A stretch of 38,514 nt of DNA, taken from assembly GCA_023667395.1 (NCBI GenBank), contig JAMPAC010000001.1:1-38514 (forward strand). The letters are read 5' to 3'. Each line of letters begins with the position of its first letter. Position 1 is the first letter of the stretch. Both the position numbers and the translations under genes were made by a program. The notes below the pieces were generated by a model that ran no database searches, was not told where the DNA came from, and saw nothing but the letters and a program-made list of their open reading frames with translations. Positions 29,255 to 35,870 of the stretch are shown piece by piece. This DNA comes from Blautia sp. GTDB taxonomy: Bacteria > Bacillota > Clostridia > Lachnospirales > Lachnospiraceae.

Positions 29255-29773
29255 TCAAAGCTTTCTGACCTCCGCAAAACTGATCTCCACAGGGGTCTCC
29301 CGGCCAAACAGTTCCACGTTGATGGTGGCCGTCTGCTTCCCATGATCCAGCTTCTGCACAATGCCGACGGTGTCTTTCCACACGCCCGCCACAACGGCGA
29401 TGCTGTCTCCCTCCACAAAATCAATGGAGACATTTTCGGTCCTGATGCCCAAGGGCTTCATCTCCGCCTCGGTCAGGGGAACAGGCTTGCTTCCCGGCCC
29501 CACGAATCCGGTTACACCGCGGGTATTGCGGACCACATACCATGTATCGTCGTTCATTTCCATATTGAGAAGCACATATCCGGGGAACATCTTCTTCTGG
29601 ACAGTCTTCCTGGCGCCATTCTTCATTTCCACCACATCCTGCAGGGGAACCCTTACTTCAAGAATCTGCTCCGCCAGGTGCTTGTTGTTCTCAATGGTCT
29701 TCTCAATATTGGCTTTGACCTTGTTCTCATATCCTGAATAGGTATGAACCACATACCATTTTGCCTCTGCCAT
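29255..29773 (-). CDS. nusG: Transcription elongation/antitermination factor NusG
   Basis: The NusG/Spt5 factor, 172 residues. It has an N-terminal NGN domain (KWYVVHTYSGYENKVKANIEK, MFPGYVLLNMEM, TRGVTGFVG) and a C-terminal KOW domain (EGDSIAVVAGVWKDTVGIV). GGGTGA lies upstream of the ATG. It starts 15 nt after secE in the rpmG-secE-nusG operon. Confidence 0.97.
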   Translation of the reverse strand: MAEAKWYVVHTYSGYENKVKANIEKTIENNKHLAEQILEVRVPLQDVVEMKNGARKTVQKKMFPGYVLLNMEMNDDTWYVVRNTRGVTGFVGPGSKPVPLTEAEMKPLGIRTENVSIDFVEGDSIAVVAGVWKDTVGIVQKLDHGKQTATINVELFGRETPVEISFAEVRKL

Positions 29774-29788
29774 ACGATCACCCTCGCT

Positions 29789-29992
29789 CTAAATCGATGT
29801 TAAAAAATTCACGCCACATTTGGCTATATAATCAATAATGGCAATGATCACTCCGACAACTACCGAGATTGCGACTACAGCCACAGACTGTTTTAATGTG
29901 GACTTCCTATCCGGCCATGCTACTTTCTTAAATTCAGTTTTTACGCCCTGGAAAAAACTGGGACGCGACTGCTTTTCTGCGGAATCTCCCAT
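29789..29992 (-). CDS. secE: Preprotein translocase subunit SecE
   Basis: The short single-membrane-span form of SecE, about 67 residues. The amphipathic FFQGVKTEFKKVAWPDRKST is the family signature, followed by one transmembrane helix (VAVVAISVVVGVIIAIIDYI). ATG at 29992 follows GGAGG; the TTG four codons earlier lies within that site. It partners with SecY and is co-transcribed with nusG. Confidence 0.95.
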   Translation of the reverse strand: MGDSAEKQSRPSFFQGVKTEFKKVAWPDRKSTLKQSVAVVAISVVVGVIIAIIDYIAKCGVNFLTSI

Positions 29993-30015
29993 TTCAACCT
30001 CCAATTTGAGAACGA

Positions 30016-30165
30016 TTACTTGGTTTCCTTGTGTATCGTATGCTTCCTGCAGAAACGACAGTATTTCCTGAGCTCCATTCTGTCAGGATGAGTCTTCTTA
30101 TCCTTGGTAGTATTGTAGTTACGCTGCTTGCATTCTGTGCAGGCCAATGTTATTTTTGTACGCAT
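30016..30165 (-). CDS. rpmG: 50S ribosomal protein L33
   Basis: A 49-residue L33 with both zinc-ribbon pairs, CTEC and CRFC, so it is the zinc-binding (C+) form. ATG at 30165 follows GGAGG; the open frame extends 12 residues further but without family similarity. First gene of rpmG-secE-nusG, 23 nt before secE. Confidence 0.95.
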
Positions 30166-30234
30166 TTCGCTACCTCCATATGTTTTGTAAAAAAAGAGCA
30201 TAAAAAAAAGACCTGAATCTTATCTCGTTTACTT

Positions 30235-30263
30235 ACTATAACACAACCTTCCTGCCCCGTCAA
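30235..30263 (-). promoter_or_regulatory. Promoter of rpmG-secE-nusG
   Basis: On the minus strand TTGACG (30258-30263) and TATAGT (30235-30240) have a 17-bp spacer, about 60 nt before rpmG. Confidence 0.8.
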
Positions 30264-30409
30264 CTGATTTTTTGCTGTTTTTTCCATCAGGCTCTTGTTT
30301 CTGTCTACGTAAAATGTTATAATTCAACTATAATGTAAGGGCATGGAACTGCCGATAACATAATATGGACGCTTGCATAAAATAGGGAAAGGGAAGGAGG
30401 CAGCGTACA

Positions 30410-31714
30410 ATGAGCATGGCATTAAATGCAGTATACAATAATTATCTCTCCACGTATACGCCCAAGGCGGTGACAAAATACGACACGCATAAGAAGAGCG
30501 AACTCCGTAAAGTTTATAATTCTATTGTAAAGATGAACAAAGACGCTCCCTGGTACCTTCCCACCACCAGCAGGCAGACCCAGCAATACGCAGTGGACCT
30601 GAAAGAAAATGCCAGGGATCTGCACAATACCATTGCACAACTTGGCGGACTGGAAGAAGGCAACAGCCTGCTGAGCAAGAAAAGCGCTTATTCTTCTGAT
30701 GAAAATATTGTGAAGGCTGCCTATATCGGTCCCCAGAGATCCAAGGATGAGATTCCCGACCTGCAGATGGAAGTGAGGGCGCTTGCCTCCTCGCAGGAAA
30801 ATCTGGGCTATTTTCTTCCTGATGAAAAAGTTTCCCTGGCGCCGGATACCTATTCTTTTGACGTAGGCGTCAATGATATGAACTATGAGTTCCAGTTTAC
30901 CATCGGTGAATCCGAAACAAACCGTGAGGTTCAGGAAAGGCTGGCACGCGTGATCAACAATTCCGATATCGGCCTGAAAGCGTCGATAGCGGAATCCGAG
31001 GGACGCACCTCGCTCAGGCTGACTTCCGAGTCTACCGGCCTGGGGCCGGGACGGTCGCAGATATTTACCGTCAGCGATTCCCATACCAGCAAAGTTTCCG
31101 GCGCCGTTGACTATTTCGGATTGGATTACGTCAGCAGGGACGCTTCCGACGCACAGTTCCTGCTCAATGGGGAGGAGCGCACTTCCTCTTCCAATCACTT
31201 TACCATCGGCAAAATGTTTGACGTCCAGCTGACTGGCATCAGTCCGGAAAATGAACCGGTTCAGATCGGGTTAAAGACAGATCTGGAATCCCTGACAGAC
31301 AATGTGACGCATCTGATCAGCGGGTATAACGATTTTCTCCGAGCCGCTTCCACTTATCTGGATTCCCAGGCACAGAGCAGGAAGCTGGTTCAGGAATTTA
31401 AGGGGATCGCCGCCGTATACCGCCCCTCCATGGAATCCATGGGTGTGGACATTGCGGAGGATGGCACGCTTAACGTAAACAGGGATCAGCTGAAACGATC
31501 CGCGCTGCAGTCGGATAATATCAACGAAACCTTTGCCTACCTGAAAAACTTTTCCACAACGCTGCTGCGCAAGAGCGACCAGGTATCCCTGAATCCCATG
31601 GATTACGTGGATAAGACCATGGTGGCCTACAAGAATCCCATTGCAAGCCGCAACTATGTAAGCCCTTATTCCACCAGCGCATACACCGGCATGATGTTCA
31701 ACAGCTATTGCTGA
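30410..31714 (+). CDS. FliD-like (flagellar cap/HAP2-related) protein
   Basis: This 434-residue protein has no signal peptide or membrane span. The part at about 290-370 (NVTHLISGYNDFLRAASTYL, then a VDIAEDGTLNVNRDQL segment) resembles the C-terminal region of flagellar hook-associated protein 2 (FliD). The middle (DTYSFDVGVNDMNYEFQFTIG and the following repeat) is compatible with its beta-rich domains. The N-terminal 100 residues are helical and do not look like the standard FliD N-terminus. No other flagellar gene is nearby. AGGAGG lies nine bases before the ATG; a possible TATAAT is about 80 nt upstream. It is monocistronic and ends at the terminator at 31729. Treat it as a FliD-related protein of unknown role. 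Confidence 0.6.
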   Translation: MSMALNAVYNNYLSTYTPKAVTKYDTHKKSELRKVYNSIVKMNKDAPWYLPTTSRQTQQYAVDLKENARDLHNTIAQLGGLEEGNSLLSKKSAYSSDENIVKAAYIGPQRSKDEIPDLQMEVRALASSQENLGYFLPDEKVSLAPDTYSFDVGVNDMNYEFQFTIGESETNREVQERLARVINNSDIGLKASIAESEGRTSLRLTSESTGLGPGRSQIFTVSDSHTSKVSGAVDYFGLDYVSRDASDAQFLLNGEERTSSSNHFTIGKMFDVQLTGISPENEPVQIGLKTDLESLTDNVTHLISGYNDFLRAASTYLDSQAQSRKLVQEFKGIAAVYRPSMESMGVDIAEDGTLNVNRDQLKRSALQSDNINETFAYLKNFSTTLLRKSDQVSLNPMDYVDKTMVAYKNPIASRNYVSPYSTSAYTGMMFNSYC

Positions 31715-31728
31715 CAGGAAAATAAAAG

Positions 31729-31758
31729 AAGCTTCCCGCATTCTTTTGCGGGAAGCTT
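31729..31758. terminator. Bidirectional terminator
   Basis: The 12-bp arms AAGCTTCCCGCA/TGCGGGAAGCTT surround a short loop and have T-runs on both strands. It serves the plus-strand FliD-like gene and the minus-strand glf gene, whose stop codon is immediately adjacent. Confidence 0.85.
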
Positions 31759-31759
31759 T

Positions 31760-32899
31760 TTATGTCTCCTGTCTGCTCCGTAATTCAGCCTGCGCCATTT
31801 TCAACGCCCCGGCGATCACCTTGTCCATATCATAATACCGGTACTGCCCCAGCCTGCCTCCGAAGATCACATTCTCCTCAGCTGCCGCCAGTTCGCTGTA
31901 CTTCTCATAAAGCGCCATGTTTTCCCGGTCATTGACAGGATAATAAGGTTCCCTGCCCTTTTCCCATGCGGACGGGTACTCCCTGGTGATCACAGTGCCC
32001 TTTCCGGCTCCAAACTCAAAGTGCTTGTGCTCGATGATACGCGTGTAAGGAACCGCCCTGTCCGTGTAATTGACCACCGCATTCCCCTGGTAATTATCGC
32101 ACCCTTCCATGAACTCCTCTTCAAAGCGGAGGGAACGATACTGCAGTTCGCCCAGGCAGTAGTCAAAATACTCGTCGATCATGCCGGTGTAAAGTATCCG
32201 GTCAAAGGTGTCCGGTTCCCCACTTTCCCTGTTTTGCTTCAGGAAGTCCCGGTAAGATATCCCCAGCCTGACGGGCGTATCTTCCAGAAGCTTTGCAACG
32301 ATCTGCGTATAGCCTCCCACAGGGATCCCCTGATACCTGTCGGTGAAATAATTATTATCATAGGTAAATCGTACCGGCAGACGCCGGATGATGAACGCAG
32401 GCAGTTCTCTACAGCTTCTGCCCCACTGCTTTTCCGTATAGCCCTTTACCAGCTTCTCATAGACATCCCTGCCCACCAGGGAAAGAGCCTGTTCCTCCAG
32501 GTTCGCAGGCTCTGCGCCATCTCCCGCCGCCATTTTCCGCTGCTCCTCTATCACGGCTTTCGCCTCGTCCGGAGTCCTGACGCCCCACATTTTGCTGAAA
32601 GTATTCATATTAAAGGGCAGATTGTAAAGTTCATCCCGGTAGACCGCTATCGGCGAATTGACGTAATGATTGAATTCGGCAAACTGATTGACATACTCCC
32701 AGACCGACCTGTCAGAAGTATGAAAAATATGGGCCCCATATTTGTGTACCTGGATGCCGTTCCACTCCTCCGTATAGATATTACCGCCTATATGGGCACG
32801 CCTGTCTATGCAATAACAGCTCCTGCCCGCCGCTTTTACCGCATGGGAAAAAACCGCGCCAAAAAGGCCGGTTCCCACAATCAGATAGTCATATCTCAT
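31760..32899 (-). CDS. glf: UDP-galactopyranose mutase
   Basis: The flavoenzyme that interconverts UDP-galactopyranose and UDP-galactofuranose for cell-surface polysaccharide. FAD-binding VGTGLFGAVF lies at the N-terminus. HIGGNIYTE, GAHIFHTS, the arginine-containing YTEKQWGR and GGRLGQYRYYDMD near the C-terminus are all diagnostic. The 379-residue length is normal. Its start ATG overlaps the stop of the upstream XRE gene by 4 nt (ATGA), so the two are translationally coupled. Confidence 0.95.
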   Translation of the reverse strand: MRYDYLIVGTGLFGAVFSHAVKAAGRSCYCIDRRAHIGGNIYTEEWNGIQVHKYGAHIFHTSDRSVWEYVNQFAEFNHYVNSPIAVYRDELYNLPFNMNTFSKMWGVRTPDEAKAVIEEQRKMAAGDGAEPANLEEQALSLVGRDVYEKLVKGYTEKQWGRSCRELPAFIIRRLPVRFTYDNNYFTDRYQGIPVGGYTQIVAKLLEDTPVRLGISYRDFLKQNRESGEPDTFDRILYTGMIDEYFDYCLGELQYRSLRFEEEFMEGCDNYQGNAVVNYTDRAVPYTRIIEHKHFEFGAGKGTVITREYPSAWEKGREPYYPVNDRENMALYEKYSELAAAEENVIFGGRLGQYRYYDMDKVIAGALKMAQAELRSRQET

Positions 32900-33246
32900 T
32901 TACTTTTCTTGCCTTTTGCCTTGTACTTATCAATCTGGACAAAATCATCCATCAACTCCAGGATCTTGTCCCGTCCGTTCTGGTTCAGCTTGATATAATA
33001 CTGCATTACCCTGTTCTCCAGAAGCTGCGCCCCCAGGGATGTGTCCCTCTCCAGAGAGGAGAAGTCAACCGGGTTCAGGCTCAGTTTGTCACACATCCTG
33101 ATCACGGTGCCGTAAGCCATGCCCTCGATCCCACGTTCCAGCGCCGTCACCAGAGTACTGTAAGGAATACTCATCTCCATCGCGAACTGACGCACACTGC
33201 GATACTGCCTTAAAATTTCTTTCTTCAAAATTTCTGCTTTTGTCAT
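32896..33246 (-). CDS. XRE-family helix-turn-helix protein coupled to glf
   Basis: A 116-residue protein with an N-terminal XRE helix-turn-helix (SVRQFAMEMSIPYSTLVTALERG, about 16-40) and a C-terminal helical tail ending in a lysine cluster. GGAGG precedes the ATG, and the promoter lies at 33288-33316. It forms a two-gene operon with glf and could control it or itself. Target and signal are unknown. Confidence 0.8.
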   Translation of the reverse strand: MTKAEILKKEILRQYRSVRQFAMEMSIPYSTLVTALERGIEGMAYGTVIRMCDKLSLNPVDFSSLERDTSLGAQLLENRVMQYYIKLNQNGRDKILELMDDFVQIDKYKAKGKKSK

Positions 33247-33316: not shown

Positions 33317-33496
33317 GTACAATCCTGAATTTTTAAGAAATTCCTTTAAAAAATTTTATCCAAGCGGAAAATTTCACCGGAATTGGGATGCGATTTCCTG
33401 GCCGGTTCCCACAAATATGTCATAATCGGTGCGTTTCGGGTACTGTATAAAACTTAAAATAGGTCATAGCAGACTTATGATGAAAGGGAATTGTCC

Positions 33497-34192
33497 ATGA
33501 ACGATACTTATGACTCCGTACTGCGGAGATTAAGGGAAGAGCGCGAGCGCAGAAATCTGACGCAACGGCTGCTGTGTTACTGCATGAAGATACAACAGAG
33601 CCATTTCAGCAGGGCTGAAACAGGCCAAAGACGTTTTTCCTACCATGAACTGAAACAGCTGTGTGCCACTGATGTGGACATGCTTTATATCTTTACCGGC
33701 AAAAGAACCCTGCGTCAGGGGGAATTCCTGCAATGGCCGGAACTCAGCCCGGATGAATCGATCTGTCTTCTGAGCACGGTATATACCCTGGCATGCTTCA
33801 CATGGTCCGCAGACCATGGCAGGACTCCTTTCGATGAGATCAGGCAACAGTTGGAATATATCCAGTGCGGGAATTGGAGAAACGGAAACCGGAACAACAT
33901 ATTCCTGTACACACGGAACCGCTGCGGCTATACCCAGGAAAAAATGGCTGACGCCCTGGGGGTGGATATCAAGAAACTCCGCATGCTTGAAAAAGGGCGG
34001 CTGCTTCCGGACAGCGAACTCATCTGGAAAATGTACGATCTGTTCCATGTATCTCCCGCCTTTATCCTGAAAGACCCGAAAGGATTGTTAAACGAATTGA
34101 ATTATATACTGGACCTGGTGGAAGACAGCGACCGGGAGATCATGCTGCTGATCCTAAAGAATGAATACCGGCTGGTACATGGGACACAATGA
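33497..34192 (+). CDS. Double XRE-type helix-turn-helix regulator
   Basis: This 231-residue protein appears to contain two XRE-like helix-turn-helix domains. The first (about 7-60) covers LRRLREERERRNLTQRLLCYCMKIQQSHFSRAE. The second (about 135-190) has the classical form RNRCGYTQEKMADALGVDIKKLRMLEKGR. The linker is rich in Trp and Cys. ATG at 33497 is preceded by AAAGGGA; a TTG lies two codons earlier. It precedes the zinc-ribbon and TIR genes on the same strand by about 110 nt, and may regulate them. No enzymatic domain is seen. Confidence 0.75.
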   Translation: MNDTYDSVLRRLREERERRNLTQRLLCYCMKIQQSHFSRAETGQRRFSYHELKQLCATDVDMLYIFTGKRTLRQGEFLQWPELSPDESICLLSTVYTLACFTWSADHGRTPFDEIRQQLEYIQCGNWRNGNRNNIFLYTRNRCGYTQEKMADALGVDIKKLRMLEKGRLLPDSELIWKMYDLFHVSPAFILKDPKGLLNELNYILDLVEDSDREIMLLILKNEYRLVHGTQ

Positions 34193-34306
34193 ACAAAATG
34201 CCCTTCACAATACATTTTTATCGCAAAAAGCATTTACTTTTTTGAGGAATGGTATTATTATTTGTTATATAGAAATGCGATTATTTTAATGTCAGGAGGG
34301 CGTCTA

Positions 34307-35038
34307 ATGTCTTGTTTCCTAATGCACAGCTGGGGTAACTGGGAAAAGTTATCCGGCGTATGTGAAGAAAAATGTACCTGCACAAAGTGCGGAAAAGAAA
34401 AAAAGAGAAGTATCGAACACAGTTATGGAAAATGGGCTGCGACATCTGAACCATGTCGGCAGGAACGTTTTTGCACCTGGTGCGGAAAACAGGAGAAGAG
34501 AACCGTACATACATTTTCCGGGGAGGACTATACCATGGAAGACGCTTCCTGCACCACTATGCAGACATGCACCGTATGCGGCGCCAAAAAGATATATTAT
34601 AACCGCCATGAATTCACCGACTGGGACTATAAAAACAACAACTCCTGTATCATGGTCAGGTACTGCAGACGCTGCGGATTAATGCAGTATGGCGAGGAAA
34701 AGCATCAATGGCGCAATTCCGTCATAGTAGACGGAGCCCCGAAACCCAAACGCGGCGGCTCCACCTATTATCATTGCCTGGAGAGCGCGATACAATATAC
34801 AGATGCCCAGATCAGCAAACATGAGGATTTTCTGAAAAATATTTCCTACAACGGAGATGAAAACATCAAGATAAAGCATATCGAACAATTAGACGAACTG
34901 CGACTGAAGAAAATAAAATACGATGGCAGGCTGAAAAACTGCAATCACAGTGTATTGGGCGATATTTGCGAGCGCTGCTGGAACGTGATCAACTGGGGAA
35001 TTACAGAAGAGGATATCAAGAAAAGTGTTGCAGACTAA
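34307..35038 (+). CDS. Cys/His-repeat zinc-ribbon protein of unknown function
   Basis: This 243-residue protein is a string of four zinc-binding repeats of about 31 residues (7-38, 38-68, 68-101, 101-133). Each runs from a His followed by an aromatic or Trp, through spaced Cys, to CxxC(G) and the next His. The Cys positions include 19/25/28, 50/56/59, 82/88/91 and 114/120/123. A helical, lysine-rich segment follows (about 155-210), and a last Cys cluster (212, 221, 224) closes the protein. ATG at 34307 is chosen because CAGGAGGG precedes it. Its 3' end overlaps the TIR-like gene by 14 nt, so they are translationally coupled and probably work together. I do not recognise a named family. It could be a nucleic-acid or protein-binding sensor. 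Confidence 0.75.
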   Translation: MSCFLMHSWGNWEKLSGVCEEKCTCTKCGKEKKRSIEHSYGKWAATSEPCRQERFCTWCGKQEKRTVHTFSGEDYTMEDASCTTMQTCTVCGAKKIYYNRHEFTDWDYKNNNSCIMVRYCRRCGLMQYGEEKHQWRNSVIVDGAPKPKRGGSTYYHCLESAIQYTDAQISKHEDFLKNISYNGDENIKIKHIEQLDELRLKKIKYDGRLKNCNHSVLGDICERCWNVINWGITEEDIKKSVAD

Positions 35039-35780
35039 CCACTTCATCAACAACGAGGCCATATGCTCCCTGAGCGGCAAAATACAGCGTCTGTTCGGCA
35101 GCGGCGCCGTATGGGACTGCTTCTGCGAATGTCTGTCATTTGCGCAGAACGGCGAGACGCTGCTCTTAGAAGAAAGCCGCCGCAAACTGCGTCAGGAGAA
35201 AGACAGGTTCCTTGCCCATCAGGCTGTATATATTCCTGCCCAGGTCTTGCGATATGAGCAGGCAATACAGGAGGCGGAAAATATGTTTAATAAAATGGAA
35301 TCCATACCGGCCGCCGGAAATAACTCCAAAAAAGTTTTCCTGGTCCATGGCCGCAATATGCAAATGAAAAAGGAAATCAAGGCGTTCTTCTATGAGATCG
35401 GCTTTGAACCCATTATCTTAAGCGAACAGGTCAATGGCGGCAAAACAGTGATCGAGAAGTTTGAAGAGTACGCGGAGCAGGCAGCATTCGCTGTTATCAT
35501 GCTGTCCCCTGATGACGAAGGCGGTTCCAGAGGGCAGCTTCCGCGTCCCCGCGCCCGTCAAAACGTCATCCTGGAACTGGGCTATTTTATCGGCAGGCTG
35601 GGACGTTCCAAAGTACTCCTGTTCCGCCCGGCTGATGAAGAGTTCGAAGAGCCCTCCGACATTTCAGGATACTGCTTTATCAATTATGATTCCAGTGAAA
35701 AATGGAAACTGGAAGCAGCCAAAAATATCGCTTCCATGGGATATCATATTGATCTGCATAAGATAACGATGGGGGAATGA
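35025..35780 (+). CDS. TIR-like nucleotide-binding/NADase-type protein
   Basis: This 251-residue protein has a C-terminal TIR-like domain (about 102-240): KKVFLVHGRN, IGFEPIILSEQVNGGKTVIEKFEEY, AVIMLSPDDEG, RARQNVILELGYF and RSKVLLF. This is the pattern of the TIR-like family (Pfam PF10137 type) found in CBASS Cap12 and Pycsar effectors, where it degrades NAD. Glu184 in NVILELGYF is the likely catalytic residue. The first 100 residues are a helical domain of unknown function. The start is a GTG at 35025 inside the upstream zinc-ribbon gene. I see no STING, cyclic-nucleotide-binding or cyclase domain, so activation must differ. Probable effector of a defence module. Confidence 0.82.
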   Translation: MLQTNHFINNEAICSLSGKIQRLFGSGAVWDCFCECLSFAQNGETLLLEESRRKLRQEKDRFLAHQAVYIPAQVLRYEQAIQEAENMFNKMESIPAAGNNSKKVFLVHGRNMQMKKEIKAFFYEIGFEPIILSEQVNGGKTVIEKFEEYAEQAAFAVIMLSPDDEGGSRGQLPRPRARQNVILELGYFIGRLGRSKVLLFRPADEEFEEPSDISGYCFINYDSSEKWKLEAAKNIASMGYHIDLHKITMGE

Positions 35781-35799
35781 ACCGTCCGGTCATTCCCCC
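35771..35799. terminator. Hairpin at the 3' end of the TIR-like gene
   Basis: GGGGGAATGA-ACCG pairs with CGGTCATTCCCCC (one bulged base). The stem includes the TIR stop codon. There is no clear T-run, but its place between convergent genes suggests it blunts transcription or protects the mRNA end. Confidence 0.5.
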
Positions 35800-35870
35800 A
35801 TGTAATCATTCCCTGAATTGCCTGTGCTGCCTGTATTCTTCAGGGGAACATCTGTTTTGATGATCACTGA

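Follow-up and report, generated by a model that had tools for sequence, protein, structure and literature searches.

What does a small protein built around a tandem Cys/His array do when its gene overlaps that of a TIR-domain protein? This question is raised by two genes toward the right-hand end of the 38,514-nucleotide stretch of Blautia sp. DNA analyzed here (contig JAMPAC010000001.1, hereafter the window). The upstream gene encodes a protein with four Cys/His repeats, referred to below as the zinc-repeat protein, and the downstream one the TIR protein; their features are collected in Table 1. The explanation proposed, with about even chances of being right, is a two-gene abortive-infection (anti-phage) module, in which a TIR effector is paired with a zinc-array partner. 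TIR-mediated abortive infection is a known kind of defense, and the zinc-array partner would be what is new; no description of such a two-gene pair was found in the titles or abstract openings searched, most subscription papers lying outside this coverage. To our knowledge, the triggers of many lone or small-operon TIR effectors are mostly open.

The sequence of the TIR protein very probably makes it an effector of the TIR nicotinamide adenine dinucleotide hydrolase (NADase) kind. Its PF10137 domain scores 124.4 bits, against a curated cut-off of 24.7, over positions 1–118 of the 119-position profile. The motif RARQNVILELGYF begins at residue 176 and contains Glu184, as a preliminary description of this DNA had it, and Arg178, Asn180, Glu184 and Asp212 align to the Arg, Asn, Glu and opposite-protomer Asp of the active site in structure 7un8. 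The roles of these four residues in this type of TIR are described in Ref. PMC9402430. The Glu is kept in all 23 PF10137 places found by profile, and the Asp in 21 of the 23. Asn replaces Asp212 in two loci (L042:1117-1905 and L043:1111-1905) where a PF10137 TIR is fused to a receiver-like (response-regulator) domain. The nearest structural match of the TIR protein is a defense TIR. The profile match and the active-site residues in place agree with the assignment to the Cap12/PycTIR type made in the preliminary description. In the predicted model, roughly 100 residues form a helical arm, the first 40 with predicted local distance difference test (pLDDT) values of 43–61, and the TIR domain follows up to the C-terminal end. 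A phmmer search with the arm gave nothing better than E 3 in a small set of 153 TIRs, and hence no relative there, although profiles extend into the arm from residue 33 or 55.

Comparison with known systems delineates what is familiar here and what is not. The PADLOC candidate PDC-S35, which we take to be a one-gene candidate, shares the TIR domain and part of the preceding region: its profile PDLC05005 (E 2e-60) covers residues 55–247 on profile positions 73–262 of 264, residues 1–54 being unmatched. It differs in that, in the window, the zinc-repeat gene overlaps the TIR gene. The Cap12 (TIR-STING) profile of NCBIfam, from the cyclic-oligonucleotide-based antiphage signaling system (CBASS), gives 38 bits (cut-off 450), and no STING domain is present in the TIR protein, where Pfam gives the TIR only, with the helical arm before it. 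The likeness to PycTIR of the Pycsar system is a C-terminal TIR after an N-terminal part (PycTIR profile E 4e-18, residues 95–241); in contrast, the Pfam scan detected no cyclic-nucleotide-binding domain on the window protein. With regard to Thoeris, the PADLOC matches to the TIR protein include no ThsB profile at E values up to 1; no search was made for ThsA. Neither the entire source genome, which is 94% complete, nor the scanned neighbors yielded a CD-NTase of the SMODS family (PF18144). These neighboring genes also lack a Pycsar cyclase, no genome-wide search for a pyrimidine cyclase having been made. Within this scope, the earlier statement that neither cyclase nor STING lies beside the pair is supported.

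The two genes share 14 nucleotides (35025–35038), and both reading frames and their overlap were recovered as previously described. No clear ribosome site precedes the GTG start of the TIR gene, whereas the zinc-repeat gene has a good one; the TIR gene is therefore probably translated by coupling to the zinc-repeat gene, and both are very likely carried on one message. The strict repeats of the zinc-repeat protein are C19/C25/C28/H38, C50/C56/C59/H68, C82/C88/C91/H101 and C114/C120/C123/H133. Among 20,000 shuffles of this protein, one copy of the repeat arose in 105 and two or more in none. A C-terminal Cys knuckle (C212, C221, C224) can be added to the features first listed. No hydrophobic stretch is present, the maximum 19-residue hydropathy of 0.43 being too low for a secretion signal, and the protein is thus probably cytosolic. 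It has no credible match in Pfam, NCBIfam, PADLOC, PHROGs or PDB (the latter to E 10); the best Pfam score, E 0.044, is below the cut-off of that family. In the single-sequence model, residues 161–200 form the sole long stretch above pLDDT 70 (71–84), and the array has a mean pLDDT of 43, too poor for a fold search. The "zinc-ribbon" label given in the preliminary description is sound as regards the four strict Cys/His repeats, whereas the ribbon likeness itself is a matter of Cys spacing alone, with no profile match and an unusable array model.

The balance tips slightly toward the zinc-repeat protein being a working partner of the TIR. It could then be a sensor or a restraining partner: the zinc repeats would bind nucleic acid or protein that a phage has made or altered, the helical hairpin would gather the TIR arms, or release them, and TIR oligomers would then form and consume NAD+. 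Oligomerization is the trigger in the relatives TIR-STING and PycTIR, according to PMC9402430 and PMC11224242, and may by analogy be the trigger for the window TIR.

A second pointer to such a partnership comes from another genome of the genus, G093, which holds the sole other small relative of the zinc-repeat protein without a secretion-like start among 138 genus genomes. This relative matches the window protein at E 4e-9 but is split among frames, through either decay or an assembly error. As in the window, and in matching order, its array is followed by an HQW and a Y-C-E-A stretch and then by a Cys knuckle; 16 and 54 of 5000 shuffles reach the scores of these post-array features. Immediately 3' of the knuckle, the open piece continues into a stretch that matches TIR profiles (ThsB 2.1e-4, SAVED-TIR 0.0013), together with three more ThsB profiles at 0.0074–0.015 and Pfam TIR_2 at 0.0056, the latter below its cut-off. 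A PDDEXK_9 open reading frame (ORF) lies upstream and, by eye, glycosyltransferase-like ORFs downstream. If this association is not due to chance, zinc arrays of the window type would be linked to two different TIR families.

Several results weigh against the partnership. The TIR-like fragment of G093 has no PDB match at all, and the array piece itself scored 0.0024 to a cyclase profile in the same search, probably by chance, so that scores near 0.002 in that search are weak. The strongest argument for a real zinc–TIR partnership comes from G093, yet this second link rests on a single broken gene on a 5-kb contig. Relatives of the zinc-repeat protein are otherwise very scarce. None was found in genomes of 84,980 species with close-match patterns (9 pattern stretches), in viral contigs with 4 stretches from the window protein, in plasmids (to E 1) or in phages (to E 0.05). 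A window-like zinc array is present in none of the fetched stretches around 159 close TIR relatives. Moreover, a same-strand ORF ending within 25 nucleotides of the TIR start is seen in just 44 of the 144 relatives with enough upstream DNA, and most TIR relatives therefore appear able to do without an upstream partner. Of the 159 loci, 80 come from genomes (the best of at least 578) and 79 from viral contigs (out of 134 there), some viral ones sharing one contig or being near-identical; neighbors were scanned up to 6 kb from the TIR match, less at contig ends. Searches with the G093 piece retrieved no relative in plasmids or in viral contigs (3 stretches), nor did a two-row alignment in the latter (27 stretches).

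In related bacteria, genome matches to the zinc-repeat protein number 6/101 and 6/138 in the genus, 3/397 in the family and 3/291 in the class, the window's genome included. Apart from the window, G093, an 856-residue ORF seen in part (L222) and a 186-residue protein that has two CxxC but lacks an array (L210), they are large or secreted-looking repeat proteins (L004, L006, L007, L009, L010, L209, L220, L221, L223 and L224), plus a 347-residue lipoprotein-like ORF (L008); several of these ORFs run beyond the fetched stretch, with their start outside the view. Three of them share the repeat spacing of the window, with 5 (L006), 14 (L010) and 5 (L209) strict copies. The repeat spacing itself is not new, since it occurs in these larger proteins, and what is unusual is its use in a small signal-less protein. 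The large proteins (L006, L010, L209 and L008) differ in that they are ORFs of 347–684 residues with a hydrophobic stretch near the start, and no TIR link was seen for these large or secreted zinc-repeat proteins. A match of the G093 piece in L218 was rejected, as it lies in another frame of a 484-residue ORF. The zinc-repeat protein is thus close to unique, which limits what comparison can say.

Among close relatives of the TIR, the zinc array does not recur as a partner, and the recurring module that the preliminary description expected it to mark is not borne out. That description also took rarity of zinc-protein homologues beside TIR-like genes as a sign against the idea; this is half the case, the array being absent from the TIR loci, yet the G093 relative preceding a TIR-like fragment. 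Eleven Cys-rich ORFs in 10 of the 159 loci passed the filter; L165 and the L105 neighborhood were read whole, the remainder being judged by first residues. As array homologues, the L165 neighbor was rejected for its different Cys pattern and the 800-residue L111 protein, with nine CxxC, for the lack of such a repeat, and several others look like spurious high-GC frames. No array lies within 1.5 kb in 33 TIR loci of the order and family (27 distinct places besides the window). Alternatively, though somewhat unlikely in our judgment, the TIR may be an effector acting alone, like PDC-S35, that happens to stand behind an unrelated zinc-repeat gene and senses through its own helical N-terminal arm. 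This reading would fit the absence of a zinc partner at the relatives' loci, the single name under which PADLOC has PDC-S35, and the occurrence of PF10137 TIRs in 21 of 392 order genomes, with varied N-terminal parts (receiver-like, ribbon-like, others and what we presume to be AbiJ-like, by eye). It accounts poorly for the overlap that ties translation of both genes, for a TIR start without a clear ribosome site and for the G093 relative, of the same genus, that also precedes a TIR-like fragment.

Relatives of the window TIR are present in 11 of 397 genomes of the family (as in the order count, the window's genome is included), and the TIR matched in 1166 of 72,556 plasmid records. A second PF10137 protein of the source genome (G000:C122:27770-28123; L002, L214) is short (183 residues) and lies about 0.6 kb from an integrase-like ORF (by eye). 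Three fusions place a Cys4 ribbon-like domain, recognized by its Cys pattern, before the TIR (L034:1420-2403 and L046:1435-2313 on the minus strand, L185:4617-5531 on the plus strand). They differ from the window pair in being single polypeptides with one ribbon and a helical part, and no tandem C-x5-C-x2-C-x9-H array. Across them, the N-terminal helical part is similar-looking.

A small protein of one family (93–128 residues) precedes the TIR in 17 of 153 readable genes, overlapping it by 1–50 nucleotides in 16 and abutting it in one. This family (for example L105:5261-5545, with 16 further loci) recurs in genome and viral contigs. A coupled partner is thus usual in one TIR branch, but it is not the zinc-repeat protein. 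Such small genes, like the partner-first, effector-second order and the overlap in the window, would also suit a toxin–antitoxin-like pair, in which the zinc-repeat protein is made first and silences a toxic TIR until phage takeover removes it. This is rather improbable: the zinc-repeat protein matched no antitoxin profile, showed no DNA-binding domain that could serve self-regulation and, with 243 residues, is large for an antitoxin.

Table 1. Features of the overlapping gene pair (window coordinates).
Feature	Position	Strand	Details
Shine-Dalgarno AGGAGG	34294..34299	+	7 nt 5' of zinc-repeat ATG; read directly
Zinc-repeat protein gene	34307..35038	+	ATG start, 243 aa; no credible family match
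Four-repeat array C-x5-C-x2-C-x8/9-H	34325..34705	+	residues 7-133; repeat alignment
Helical hairpin	34763..34936	+	residues 153-210; single-sequence model
C-terminal Cys knuckle C212/C221/C224 (with H214)	34940..34978	+	residues 212-224; read from sequence
TIR protein gene	35025..35780	+	GTG start within zinc-repeat gene, 251 aa
N-terminal helical region of TIR protein	35046..35300	+	residues 8-92; helices 8-24, 29-41, 45-92; predicted model
PF10137 (CAP12-PCTIR_TIR) domain	35331..35690	+	residues 103-222; Pfam, E 3e-36
Glu184 codon	35574..35576	+	equivalent of catalytic Glu84 of SfSTING
Strong hairpin, -23.9 kcal/mol	35766..35803	+	spans TIR stop codon; no T-run; not among terminator-scan results

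The locus is likely to have a defense role. A block of nusG, secE, rpmG, FliD-like, Glf and small XRE genes (window 29255–33246) is largely kept in the genus. Beyond the small XRE gene, the content varies (glycan genes, flagellar genes, C5 methyltransferase and others, by eye); in another genus genome (L263), for instance, a C5 DNA methyltransferase-like ORF and neighboring large ORFs follow it, again by eye. The region that adjoins the block, strongly variable as it is, makes a candidate insertion hotspot. nusG was detected in 36 of the 41 genomes searched. Leaving out the source genome, stretches were fetched for 20 of the remaining 35; the small-XRE anchor is visible in 12 of these 20, with 1.9 to 15.3 kb beyond it. 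Neither the zinc gene nor the TIR gene is present in any of these 12 anchored loci, nor in the remaining 8 stretches, of which L269 was drawn from the wrong flank of nusG and L258 is cut off within Glf by the end of its contig. The GC content over the pair, 43–50% against 50–55% in the genes to its right, is a modest sign of insertion. Just past the window end, on the minus strand (G000:C111:38660-45483; L215:660-7483), lie a PtuA-like AAA ATPase ORF, short at 240 residues against a 411-position profile, and type I restriction-modification genes HsdS, HsdM and HsdR. The previously described placement in a variable site of a surface-polysaccharide locus is supported, the pair adjoining sugar-nucleotide genes a few kb from other defense genes. 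A non-defense role, as a regulator of the adjoining glycan or flagellar glycosylation genes with the TIR domain acting as a nucleoside-type hydrolase, appears very improbable in view of the kept active-site residues, the defense TIR as nearest structure and the missing pair at all anchored loci. The tandem helix-turn-helix gene upstream (33491–34192) was considered as a component of the module and rejected: 30 of 138 genomes of the genus, counting the source genome, contain relatives of it, and the regions fetched for 12 of the 46 listed matches hold no kept ORF of at least 70 residues with more than one CxxC.

If the two-gene module is real, its dedicated metal-array partner would represent a novel type of TIR trigger, and a repeat type of secreted-looking proteins would be tied to intracellular immunity. 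As a wider and doubtful extension, tandem C-x5-C-x2-C-x9-H arrays, which this analysis otherwise encountered in secreted-looking proteins, might have been recruited inside the cell as sensors controlling TIR effectors of at least two families: in the window through a distinct gene that overlaps the one for the Cap12-type TIR, and in the broken G093 relative through an array joined to a Thoeris-like TIR. The pair forms a two-gene cassette of 1.5 kb, which makes it easily tested.
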